From Spirochaetota bacterium (GTDB taxonomy: Bacteria > Spirochaetota > Spirochaetia > Treponematales > UBA12059), in the NCBI GenBank assembly GCA_018815555.1, contig JAHIWF010000318.1, forward strand, positions 1 to 37,202: a stretch of DNA of 37,202 nt. The letters are read 5' to 3'. Position 1 is the stretch's first letter, and each line of letters begins with the position of its first letter. The position numbers were made by a program, and so were the translations under genes. Positions 6,926-10,054 of this stretch are shown piece by piece. Below the pieces are notes generated by a model that was not told where the DNA came from, ran no database searches, and saw only the letters and a list, made by a program, of their open reading frames with translations.

Positions 6926-6967
6926 GGGGTCAGCCCCCGCCCGGTCCGGCGGCTGGGGTCTGCCCCC
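6926..6967. repeat. Degenerate GGGGTC(A/T)G-CCCC repeats overlapping the fdhD 3' end
   Basis: Two imperfect copies of the palindromic repeat (6926-6938 and 6955-6967) lie in the yjbQ-fdhD convergent gap. The fdhD stop codon (6930-6932) falls inside the first, and the last residues of FdhD are encoded by the repeat region. Confidence 0.6.
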
Positions 6968-7718
6968 CGACCCGCTCAGGCGAACAATACAGCACCGGCC
7001 GGCTTTTTTCGATACGCCCCACCAGGGTAAGCCCGGTCGCCTTCGCCAACTCGAACGCCGTACTGGTAGGAATACTGCGGCTGACCAGCAGACGCACCCC
7101 GGCAGCGATGGCTTTCAGGATCATGTCGGCGGCGATGCGGCCGCTGGTCAGAATTACCGCCTGCTCCAGCGGCCAGCCGTTGCGGAACGCGTAGCCGATA
7201 ACCTTGTCCACCGCGTTGTGCCGGCCCACGTCTTCGCGCACCACAATATGCCCGGCCGGTAGCCCTTCGGCCGCAGCACCAGTGGCCGTGTCAGCCACAA
7301 ACAGGGCCGCGCAGTGCATGCCGCCGATCTCGCGATACAACTCAGCCATGTCAAACATGTAACGGGCTAAAAGCTGCAGCTCGCCCAGCGGTATACAGGG
7401 CCCGCCCTCCAGCAGCGGCAGACTGGCTTCGGTGCGGAACACCGGCCCCGATCCGCAGCCCGAAGAGACCACCACGCCCAGCCCGTAGCGGTCCTGGTGT
7501 ATCCCGTCCGGAGCAATCACTGTAGCCAGACGCAGATCGGCGCAGGCGCCGACACTCATCAAAGTCGCGCGGTCCGTAAGCATGCCGCGGCCTACCAAAT
7601 GCCCTACTGCCAGATCATCAAGATTATACGGACTGCACATCAGTACAGCCACTTTTTCGCCGTTAGCATGCAACTCCACCGGCAGCTCCGGCGCCATCCG
7701 TAATTCGTCGTCACTCAT
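6930..7718 (-). CDS. fdhD: FdhD-family formate dehydrogenase sulfurtransferase
   Basis: FdhD passes sulfur from the cysteine desulfurase to the molybdenum cofactor of formate dehydrogenase. The 262-aa protein keeps LDDLAVGHLVGRGM (33-46), the EDVGRHNAVDKVIG signature and LTSGRIAADMILKA. The usual C-x-x-C reads SSGCGSG here, so C88 is kept while the second Cys is Gly. The ATG at 7718 has AGGAGA 8 nt upstream and lies 23 nt after the ABC-F stop, so the two genes are probably co-transcribed. The C-terminal tail (GGQTPAAGPGGG) is read out of an intergenic repeat and is unlikely to matter. No formate dehydrogenase or molybdopterin genes are in the window. Confidence 0.85.
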   Translation of the reverse strand: MSDDELRMAPELPVELHANGEKVAVLMCSPYNLDDLAVGHLVGRGMLTDRATLMSVGACADLRLATVIAPDGIHQDRYGLGVVVSSGCGSGPVFRTEASLPLLEGGPCIPLGELQLLARYMFDMAELYREIGGMHCAALFVADTATGAAAEGLPAGHIVVREDVGRHNAVDKVIGYAFRNGWPLEQAVILTSGRIAADMILKAIAAGVRLLVSRSIPTSTAFELAKATGLTLVGRIEKSRPVLYCSPERVGGQTPAAGPGGG

Positions 7719-7741
7719 ATCCGCTCTCCTTGGTATCCCGC

Positions 7742-9691
7742 CTACAGCTGCTTCCATAATTGGTTCAGCAGACGGTTATGCCGCTCCAGCTCGGCCGTCA
7801 AATCCCTGGCCCGGGTATAATCCCGCTTGCCGAAGGCGGTCGCAATCTGTCTTTCCATATCTTCTTTAGTCCGTTCCATCGCGCTTATGCGCTGCTCCAG
7901 CTCGGCTTGCCCCTGCTTCGTATCGTCAGTTCCAGTTTGACCAGCTTTTGCCCCGCGGCCCTGTTTCCGTCCGGCGGCCGCAGCCGCAGTCCCTGAATCC
8001 CGGCCACGGCCACCCTGACTGTCGCCGATAGCCCGCGAGCGTTCCTGCAGGCCGCCGTCACGGGCGGCTTGCACTGCCGGTGCGCCGATATCGCGCCAAT
8101 ACTCGCTAAAGCTGCCTTCGTATTCCACAAATTTACGCTGCTCTATAAATACCACCCGATCGACAAGCTTGTCCAGAAAATAACGGTCATGCGACACTAA
8201 CAGCACCGTTCCCTCAAATTCCAGCAGCGCTTCCTCAACCGCCTCGCGGGTCGGAATATCCAGATGATTGGTCGGCTCGTCCAATATCAGAAAATTGGCC
8301 TTCAAGGCCGAAGCGCGTGCCAGCTGCAGTCGATTCAGCTCACCACCGGACAAGCTGCCGATTATCCTGGGCAGATCGGTATAAGTAAATAAAAATCGCC
8401 CCAGGTGGTGCAGTACCTCTTTCTTGTCAGTCAGCAATTTCAGAAAAGCATCCTCGATGCTGTCGTCATGATTAAATACTTCCTGCTGCTGGGCGCAATA
8501 GCCGACGCGCATGCTGGGCCCTACCCGCAGGCAGGGGTCGTCCCAGCTGCCGCGGGCTACCAGGTCGCGTATCAGACTGGTCTTGCCCGAACCATTTGGA
8601 CCCACCAGAGCCACCCGTTCGCCGTTCAGAATGGTAAAACCGGAATCTTCTATTATAACCACGTCGTCATAGCGCTTACTGTAGGCACTGATGGCCACTG
8701 CCAGATCGGCCCGCGATTTTTCCCCATCAAACACCACGCGGGCATCCAGGTTGCCGATATCCGGGCGCTCGGTAGCCTCGGCCTTAACCCGTTCCAGTTG
8801 ACTGCGCCGCGCGCGCAGGCGTTTACCCCAGGCCGGATCCGGCCGAGCGCGGGCTATGTCGGCAAAACGACGTACAAGTGCCTCCAGCCGCTCCACCCGC
8901 TTCTTGTCGGCCTGCCAGCTGCGGCCTTGGGCAGCGGCCGAACGCAAACGCTCCAGCCGGTACTGCGAATAATTGCCTTTCCATTCAGTTATTACCCCGC
9001 CGTCCATCTCCAGAATGGTATCGGCTACCCGATCCAGAAGACGGCGGTCGTGCGAAACCATCAGCACGCAGCAGGGCAGTCCGGCCAGAAACTCTTCCAG
9101 CCAGGCTAGCCCGCCGGCATCCAGATGGTTACCCGGTTCGTCCAAGATCAGCAAATCCGGCCGCGACAGCAAAGCCCGGGCCAGTGCCAGCAGGTTTTTC
9201 TCGCCACCGGACAGACTTTCTGCAGCTGTCCAGGCCCGCTCGCCCAGGCCGATGCGCTTCAGCAGCCGTTCAGCGTTATCAGCGGCATGGTCACCATCCA
9301 GCAGGTCATACTGCTCGCGCAAAATCGCATAATCGCGCATGGCCCGCTGACATATAGCCGGATCAGGATCGCCCATTTGGACTGCCAGCTCGTCCAGCTG
9401 TTCGCCCAAAGCGCTGATGTCGCGCACCAGAAAATCCACACTGGTCTCCGCCTCGCCAAAGTCCGGTGCCTTCTGTTCTACCAGGGCAATCTTTTGCTTG
9501 CCCTCGCGCTTCAGCCCGCCGCGAAAATCGTCATCCAGCCCGGCTAGAATGCGCACCAGGGTGGTTTTGCCGCAGCCGTTGCGCCCCACCAGCCCATATT
9601 TGCGGCCGGCCTCCAGCGAAATATTCACCCCGCGCAGTATCAGTTCGCCGCCGAAGTCGCGGGTCAAATTGTTTGTTTTAATCAATGCCAT
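7742..9691 (-). CDS. ABC-F family ATPase (ribosome-associated)
   Basis: Cytoplasmic tandem ABC protein without membrane segments; ABC-F proteins act on the ribosome E/P site, and some confer antibiotic protection. The 649-aa protein has two nucleotide-binding domains: Walker A GRNGCGKTT (36-44), signature LSGGE (160-164) and Walker B LLILDEPGNHLD (180-191); then GPNGSGKTS (364-372), SLSGGELNRLQ and LILDEPTNHLD. The basic helical linker at about 241-320 is the expected P-site tRNA interaction arm. A low-complexity Gly/Arg/Gln tail (about 545-590) leads into a C-terminal coiled coil. The first domain has DEPGNHLD rather than DEPTNHLD. The start has GAGGAG 7 nt upstream. An attenuator with a leader peptide lies upstream, which favours a role in antibiotic response over constitutive translation. 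Exact subfamily unknown. Confidence 0.9.
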   Translation of the reverse strand: MALIKTNNLTRDFGGELILRGVNISLEAGRKYGLVGRNGCGKTTLVRILAGLDDDFRGGLKREGKQKIALVEQKAPDFGEAETSVDFLVRDISALGEQLDELAVQMGDPDPAICQRAMRDYAILREQYDLLDGDHAADNAERLLKRIGLGERAWTAAESLSGGEKNLLALARALLSRPDLLILDEPGNHLDAGGLAWLEEFLAGLPCCVLMVSHDRRLLDRVADTILEMDGGVITEWKGNYSQYRLERLRSAAAQGRSWQADKKRVERLEALVRRFADIARARPDPAWGKRLRARRSQLERVKAEATERPDIGNLDARVVFDGEKSRADLAVAISAYSKRYDDVVIIEDSGFTILNGERVALVGPNGSGKTSLIRDLVARGSWDDPCLRVGPSMRVGYCAQQQEVFNHDDSIEDAFLKLLTDKKEVLHHLGRFLFTYTDLPRIIGSLSGGELNRLQLARASALKANFLILDEPTNHLDIPTREAVEEALLEFEGTVLLVSHDRYFLDKLVDRVVFIEQRKFVEYEGSFSEYWRDIGAPAVQAARDGGLQERSRAIGDSQGGRGRDSGTAAAAAGRKQGRGAKAGQTGTDDTKQGQAELEQRISAMERTKEDMERQIATAFGKRDYTRARDLTAELERHNRLLNQLWKQL

Positions 9692-9754: not shown

Positions 9755-9801
9755 ACAGGTACGACCTGCCGGCCGCTTTTGATCCGCACTCATGCCGATA
9801 C

Positions 9802-9839
9802 AAAAAAAACAGCCGCACCAACCCGAAGGTCTGTGCGGC
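9802..9839 (-). terminator. Attenuator terminator in the ABC-F leader
   Basis: On the minus strand, GCCGCAC-A-GACC pairs with GGUU-G-GUGCGGC through a UUCG tetraloop. That gives eleven base pairs with one A/G mismatch, followed closely by eight T residues (9809-9802). It lies about 110 nt before the ABC-F start codon and 26 nt after the leader ORF stop. No other minus-strand gene ends here, so it acts on the ABC-F transcript itself. Confidence 0.85.
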
Positions 9840-9949
9840 CACAATTTCAGTATTCAAAATACTGCTATCTTGTGCTCTGGACAGACCTCTCCCGTCGGAT
9901 CGCCGCTGCGGTGCCAGAGCGGATAGCCAGAACAGTAAGAATGTCCAGA
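9827..9949 (-). promoter_or_regulatory. Mutually exclusive RNA pairings: 1:2, 2:3, 3:4 attenuator
   Basis: Segment 1 (RNA UCUGGACA, 9949-9942, within leader codons 7-10) is the exact complement of UGUCCAGA (9883-9876). The overlapping segment 2 (AGGUCUGU, 9888-9881) is the exact complement of ACAGACCU (9834-9827), which lies in the 5' arm of the terminator. So 1:2 frees segment 3 to form the terminator, while 2:3 blocks it. A ribosome held on segment 1 would favour 2:3 and read-through; one reaching the stop codon would cover segment 2 and allow termination. A small extra hairpin (9849-9865, CAGTATT/AATACTG) sits at the stop. Confidence 0.75.
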
Positions 9950-9969
9950 AATACCAAAGTACAGTTCAT
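9865..9969 (-). CDS. Leader peptide of the ABC-F attenuator (34 aa)
   Basis: A 34-codon ORF runs from ATG at 9969 to TAG at 9867-9865. It begins MNCTLVFLDILTV and ends RRERSVQSTR, with a hydrophobic first half and a basic end. It starts 7 nt after a -10 box, so the message is predicted to be leaderless. It contains both segments that build the alternative RNA structures, and it ends 26 nt before the terminator. This placement, rather than any recognised homology, is the evidence that it is translated. The early LVFLDI stretch falls over segment 1, where a stall would have to occur for induction, at a chain length similar to that of known macrolide stalling peptides. I do not recognise it as a named peptide. 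Confidence 0.7.
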   Translation of the reverse strand: MNCTLVFLDILTVLAIRSGTAAAIRRERSVQSTR

Positions 9970-9976
9970 ATTTGCC

Positions 9977-10005
9977 AGAATATCACGGATGCGGCATTCG
10001 TGCAA
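9977..10005 (-). promoter_or_regulatory. Promoter of the ABC-F leader/operon
   Basis: The minus strand reads TTGCAC, 17 bp, TATTCT, with the predicted start 7 nt on, at the first base of the leader ORF or one base before. It is divergent from the VTE5-like promoter, with operator-like repeats between them. Confidence 0.65.
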
Positions 10006-10006
10006 G

Positions 10007-10054
10007 TCGAGTATTGCTCGACAGTCGACTCTAGTTCGACAGTCGACTTTAACT
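10007..10054. promoter_or_regulatory. Tandem palindromic element between divergent promoters
   Basis: TCGACAGTCGA occurs at 10018-10028 and again at 10036-10046, an 18-bp period, inside near-identical 13-bp units. GTCGAG...CTCGAC (10007-10023) adds an overlapping inverted repeat. It lies between the -35 boxes of the ABC-F leader promoter and the VTE5-like promoter, so a dimeric repressor bound here could affect both. Confidence 0.55.

Follow-up and report, generated by a model that had tools for sequence, protein, structure and literature searches.

How is an ABC-F ATPase gene controlled when a promoter, a short open reading frame and a terminator are all packed into the region in front of it? 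This question is raised by positions 10004-9801 (-) of the window, by which we mean the whole 37,202-nt stretch of Spirochaetota DNA analysed here; the switch region ends 110 nt before the ABC-F start codon (Table 1). A sequence-only reading had proposed that stalled ribosomes on the short frame turn the gene on, and we consider it very likely that the region is indeed a ribosome-mediated transcription attenuator of the ABC-F gene. The support, comparative and computed throughout, consists of the conservation of its parts, peptide-level selection on the leader together with the spacing of a conserved Arg codon, the co-evolution of the helices and the position of the promoter. The building blocks named in that reading all stand: the promoter and the ORF start 7 nt later are exactly as noted, the 34-codon leader ORF is present, both 8-bp complementarities are as described, and folding reproduces the UUCG-capped terminator with its eight T residues.

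Table 1. Features of the attenuator region and of the genes behind it, in window coordinates.
Feature	Positions	Strand	Basis or remark
Leader promoter	9976..10004	-	TTGCAC (10004-9999), 17 nt, TATTCT (9981-9976), read from sequence
Leader ORF, leaderless (very probably), 34 codons, MNCTLVFLDILTVLAIRSGTAAAIRRERSVQSTR	9864..9968	-	sequence, peptide-level selection
Segment 1, TTTCTGGACA, 5' arm of anti-antiterminator	9941..9951	-	8-bp complement, co-evolution in 29 leaders
Invariant Arg codon (codon 17), putative stall codon (A site)	9918..9920	-	Arg in 29/29 leaders
Switch element GGGAGAGGTCTGTCCAGAGCACAAGA	9867..9892	-	3' arm of anti-antiterminator and 5' arm of antiterminator
Small hairpin CAGTATTTTGAATACTG	9847..9863	-	between element and terminator; folds in most leaders
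Intrinsic terminator, UUCG loop, T8	9801..9839	-	folding
ABC-F ATPase P0001, 649 aa, regulated gene	7742..9691	-	two ABC domains
fdhD	6930..7757	-	PF02634, TIGR00129; overlaps ABC-F gene end

P0001 is a bona fide ABC-F with two ABC domains. Its AlphaFold2 model (pLDDT 80) finds EttA, VmlR2 and PoxtA as the nearest solved folds, and it scores 375.2 bits against the curated ribosomal-protection ABC-F model NF000355, whose cut-off is 380. The nearest solved protein in sequence is EttA, a housekeeping factor, and a pairwise alignment gives P0001 an interdomain linker about 10 residues longer than EttA's; the PoxtA/OptrA linker has 4-5 residues more (PMC8987054), and ABC-F subfamilies with spirochaete members but without known function have been described (PMC6723617). 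The gene behind it had been regarded as an unusual companion. The adjacency holds, and fdhD, the gene of a formate dehydrogenase sulfurtransferase, is to some extent a conserved neighbour and not an accidental one: it directly follows the ABC-F gene in the window (6930-9691, -), in the congener G001, in G018 and in G065 (another family), is some 4 kb distant in G003, G015 and G020, and is found elsewhere in G006, G009 and G014.

Conservation of the leader in relatives was put to the proposal as a check capable of refuting it, and peptide, switch and terminator proved to be kept in 29 genomes. These genomes, from three families of one spirochaete order, yielded 29 leaders in total, 28 besides that of the window; most are metagenome assemblies, and related genomes are not independent. 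At the threshold used, an ABC-F orthologue is present in 19 of the 23 own-family genomes, and an equivalent leader can be read before it in 16; other own-family loci break at contig ends. Two own-family species (L020 and L023) carry the ABC-F gene with no visible leader in a short upstream region, and thus offer a natural comparison for regulation. A covariance model (R1) made from the 16 leaders, blind to the genes behind them, was run on 294 genomes of the order. It recovered six leaders over their full length from a second family (E 4e-23 to 8e-12, the E-values being rough) and two weak ones from a third, and each of the eight has an ABC-F gene of that same branch immediately behind it. A second model, directed at the genus of the weak hits, added five more leaders, again before ABC-F genes, which took no part in any model, and 13 of the 28 additional leaders thus come from gene-blind RNA models. 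In a phylum sample of 393 genomes no leader was found outside the own family, with filters strict enough to lose some weaker leaders already known, and a generic ABC-F motif scan of genome contigs turned up a single true orthologue (L045, Spirochaetes bacterium SZUA-370).

Two candidates were set aside: the pattern GRGTNTGGAGATATTTGAGA is too loose as a leader finder beyond the own family, and the genome's own paralogue on C239 (L135) was not counted, having a uORF-like frame but no run of T with its hairpin. A second ABC-F paralogue in G008 (L134, on C16) has a diverged leader of its own, MIAIRLSFAGNVKSDVSLRKERCAC, with a -10 end 8 nt before the ATG, an AGGTGTGCC element and a terminator, and an RNA model match occurs also in G016.

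How, then, is the leader transcribed and read? The TATTCT -10 box ends 7 nt before the leader ATG at 9968 (-), and the RNA is therefore expected to start at or next to the ATG, making the leader ORF very probably leaderless; transcripts of this kind are frequent in Leptospira, also a spirochaete (PMC5243855). The same geometry recurs in 25 of the 29 leaders, where 6-7 nt separate the -10 hexamer from the start codon and a mostly good -35 hexamer stands at 16-18 nt, the four exceptions (L029 and L202-L204) having a longer 5' part and an SD-like sequence. When 548 long ORFs (at least 250 aa) from the same loci were held to the same threshold, a score of 8 or more, about 3% had a promoter at 5-8 nt, compared with 11 of the 16 own-family leaders. 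Just upstream of the leader -35 box, between two divergent promoters, lie two exact copies of AGTCGACTGTCGA, 18 nt apart (10018-10048), with no further exact copy elsewhere in the window; this repeat pair is a possible operator.

The leaders, 28 to 46 codons long, can be aligned without gaps at a single invariant residue, an Arg, which is written with five codons (CGC, CGT, CGA, CGG and AGA). The stretch before it varies from 9 to 16 codons, yet the spacing between the Arg codon and the GGT in the switch element is near-fixed, at 33 nt in most of the 29 leaders with a range from 32 to 36; in L201, for example, the Arg is codon 14, AGA, and the spacing is again 33. Among the first 24 leaders the residue after the Arg is Ser in 18, and four positions upstream 23 of them carry Val, Leu or Ile, Val being written there with each of its four codons. 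Furthermore, 51% of single-nucleotide codon differences are synonymous, against 30% expected. These patterns, together with the promoter at the start codon, argue that the leader ORF is under peptide-level selection and that a probably translated frame overlaps the RNA switch. We find it very improbable that the region is an RNA-only element (a pause or a protein-binding RNA) with an incidental ORF: strong conservation is indeed seen in the nucleotide sequences of the GGT element and of the GATATTTGA hairpin, but the excess of synonymous changes, an Arg kept by five different codons and a leaderless promoter set at the start codon in 25/29 leaders all speak against such an element. That Arg is the sole invariant residue, and that a second Arg adjoins it in five of the six second-family leaders, would in turn suit an amino-acid attenuator sensing charged tRNA-Arg, but one or two Arg codons do not make a run, the several synonymous codons are read by different tRNAs, and an ABC-F gene would be an odd target; this candidate was judged highly unlikely.

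The architecture of the RNA switch follows from its complementarities. Segment 1 contains TCTGGACA (9949-9942), the exact complement over 8 bp of 9883-9876, and segment 2, AGGTCTGT (9888-9881), is likewise perfectly complementary over 8 bp to 9834-9827, which belongs to the terminator 5' arm. The switch element, which holds a conserved GGT..G..C core, can accordingly pair either with the leader 5' part, as anti-antiterminator, or with the terminator 5' arm, as antiterminator, and both duplexes are present in all leaders; the two helices are mutually exclusive, sharing one element. The small hairpin would form the apex of the antiterminator and contains the leader stop codon in most relatives. 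An intrinsic terminator stands between the leader and the ABC-F gene: its hairpin (9839-9810) folds at -19.4 kcal/mol and is followed by T8, a simple pattern scan did not report it though folding does, and a GC-rich hairpin with a run of 5-10 T is found in the first 24 leaders. Rfam holds no family for the leader, giving a single chance-level match only, and at the gathering score it finds in the whole window the tmRNA alone, whose gene lies at the window edge (252-611, -).

An RNAalifold consensus of the leader alignment supported only the terminator; it misses the long-range helices because these shift register between clades, and was therefore replaced by duplex, shuffle and swap tests. In the swap test, chosen because the helix sequences differ between clades, helix segments were exchanged between genomes and native duplex energies compared with swapped ones. 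Across the 29 leaders the switch element pairs with its own terminator arm at -21.2 versus -17.4 kcal/mol when swapped, and the 5' part with its own element at -20.4 versus -17.4 kcal/mol (permutation p about 2e-5 or less for both helices), whereas four control segment pairs, which would share any base-composition effect, were flat (p 0.15-0.91). In five unseen leaders 10 of 10 comparisons, over both helices, went in the predicted direction. The covariation that the earlier reading had called for is thus seen in the relatives as the co-evolution of two mutually exclusive helices, its strength lying in the set, as single helices are often non-significant alone (p 0.0-0.9) and null duplex energies are high in GC-rich sequence, which pairs easily. 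That same ease of pairing, together with the great stability of the terminator, is what would be expected of a constitutive terminator that merely lowers expression and is accompanied by accidental complementarities, but to this explanation we give very little credence in view of the swap test with its flat controls and its confirmation in the five unseen leaders.

Where on the leader would a ribosome have to stop for the switch to be thrown? In folding models with the RNA made up to the terminator loop, which are equilibrium models with an assumed ribosome footprint and kinetics, the average capture of the terminator 5' arm is 0.70-0.78 for a ribosome placed anywhere between Arg-in-A-site and 5 codons beyond it, about 0.2 once the ribosome is 9 or more codons past that position, and 0.46 without a ribosome. 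If pairing behind the ribosome is allowed, capture falls from 0.68 to 0.59 once the ribosome passes the Arg codon; in these models, therefore, Arg-in-A-site is roughly the furthest point at which a ribosome covers the 5' part and still leaves the element free. Against shuffled sequences, capture with a stalled ribosome lies above the null mean in 14 of 14 leaders, and without a ribosome it is clearly below the null in 11 of 14. Six leaders (L025, L031, L144, L170, L175 and L182) show high capture in the folding model even without a ribosome.

We propose that transcription begins on or beside the ATG of the leaderless leader ORF. When ribosomes run through or are absent, the element (9892-9867) would be held by the leader 5' part or covered by the ribosome, allowing the terminator to fold and keeping the ABC-F gene silent. 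Were a ribosome to stall on the leader, its A site most likely at or close to the invariant Arg17 codon, it would instead mask the 5' part and leave the element free about 20 nt downstream, to pair with the terminator 5' arm; with that arm captured, RNA polymerase could continue into the ABC-F gene and fdhD. The switch between 1:2 and 2:3 pairing put forward in the sequence-only reading is supported by conservation and co-evolution, but its placement of the stall at codons 7-10 is the less likely one: because the conserved residue is Arg17, the stall is probably near codon 17, and segment 1 just marks the place that the 5' arm happens to have in this genome.

Concerning the trigger, we infer that a ribosome stalls on the leader, that the agent responsible may be an antibiotic bound at the peptidyl-transferase centre or in the exit tunnel, and that the stall may be relieved by the ABC-F protein. 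With the Arg codon in the A site, Ala or Ser occupies the penultimate position of the nascent chain in 15 of 24 leaders, which is the context of chloramphenicol and linezolid stalling (PMC8987054); we keep this fit as a lead to the inducer, but mostly the leaders of the other two families lack this residue. More tentatively, the leader could be a drug-selective arrest peptide of a new type, acting with an Arg codon in the A site and with leaderless initiation, which, if true, could keep the sensor working when normal initiation is impaired. The same attenuator might also answer to a non-antibiotic trigger, with a leader that stalls by itself and an ABC-F protein that relieves the stall, so that, in the manner of intrinsic arrest peptides, a shortage of ABC-F activity would increase expression of the gene. 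Such autoregulation would suit a chromosomal gene vertically conserved in 19/23 family genomes and a product closest to EttA, and MsrD is known to suppress induction through its own leader (PMC10314930); we nevertheless hold it to be rather unlikely, as the known ABC-F gene attenuators are drug-induced and the leader shows no recognisable intrinsic arrest motif of a known kind.

Ribosome-mediated attenuation as preferred here works like the vmlR family, a likeness of layout that is separate from the question of shared ancestry. In the vmlR attenuator of Bacillus subtilis (PMC9226507) the uORF likewise lies inside the anti-antiterminator, a stalled ribosome permits an antiterminator with a small apex hairpin, and a terminator precedes the ABC-F gene; the CAGTATTTTGAATACTG hairpin even takes the position of the vmlR pause hairpin SL-2 (PMC9226507). 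The vmlR uORF, however, has 3 codons (Met-Ile-Asn) and a Shine-Dalgarno sequence, and a fourth hairpin covers the vmlR SD, whereas the spirochaete leaders have 28-46 codons and a leaderless start, carry an Arg at near-fixed spacing, and belong to another phylum and another ABC-F branch. In streptococcal MsrDL-msrD (PMC10314930) a leader peptide stall also blocks a terminator before an ABC-F gene, but MYLIFM stalls at the stop codon on macrolides, while the conserved spirochaete residue is mid-ORF, well before the stop. The cplR, vmlR2 and lsaA uORFs (MR[I/M], MK[L/Q] and MAGN; PMC10201436) similarly combine a conserved uORF and a terminator with a genome-encoded ABC-F but span 3-4 codons, and known ABC-F uORFs altogether have 3-6 (PMC9226507, PMC10201436, PMC10314930); the internal conserved motif of the spirochaete leaders suggests context-specific stalling. 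Leaderless short attenuator ORFs exist in trpL of Sinorhizobium (PMC7298713) and in the Cys-codon ORFs of mycobacteria (cited in PMC9031893), but they sense amino-acid supply and control biosynthesis genes, and in the literature searched we found no description of an ABC-F gene attenuator with a leaderless leader ORF. What sets the spirochaete leaders apart is the uORF length, the leaderless start, the internal conserved residue near-fixed from the switch, the phylum and the ABC-F branch. ABC-F attenuation would thus extend to an uncultured spirochaete lineage and to a chromosomal ABC-F branch, and the conserved arrest-like motif at its near-fixed distance makes both the specificity of the sensor and the function of the branch directly testable.

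In three genomes of the third family (L202-L204) an SD and GATCCGGCC precede the leader start codon, and GATCCGGCC is perfectly complementary to GGCCGGATC, which sits immediately ahead of the ABC-F SD; their pairing could possibly provide an extra translational layer.
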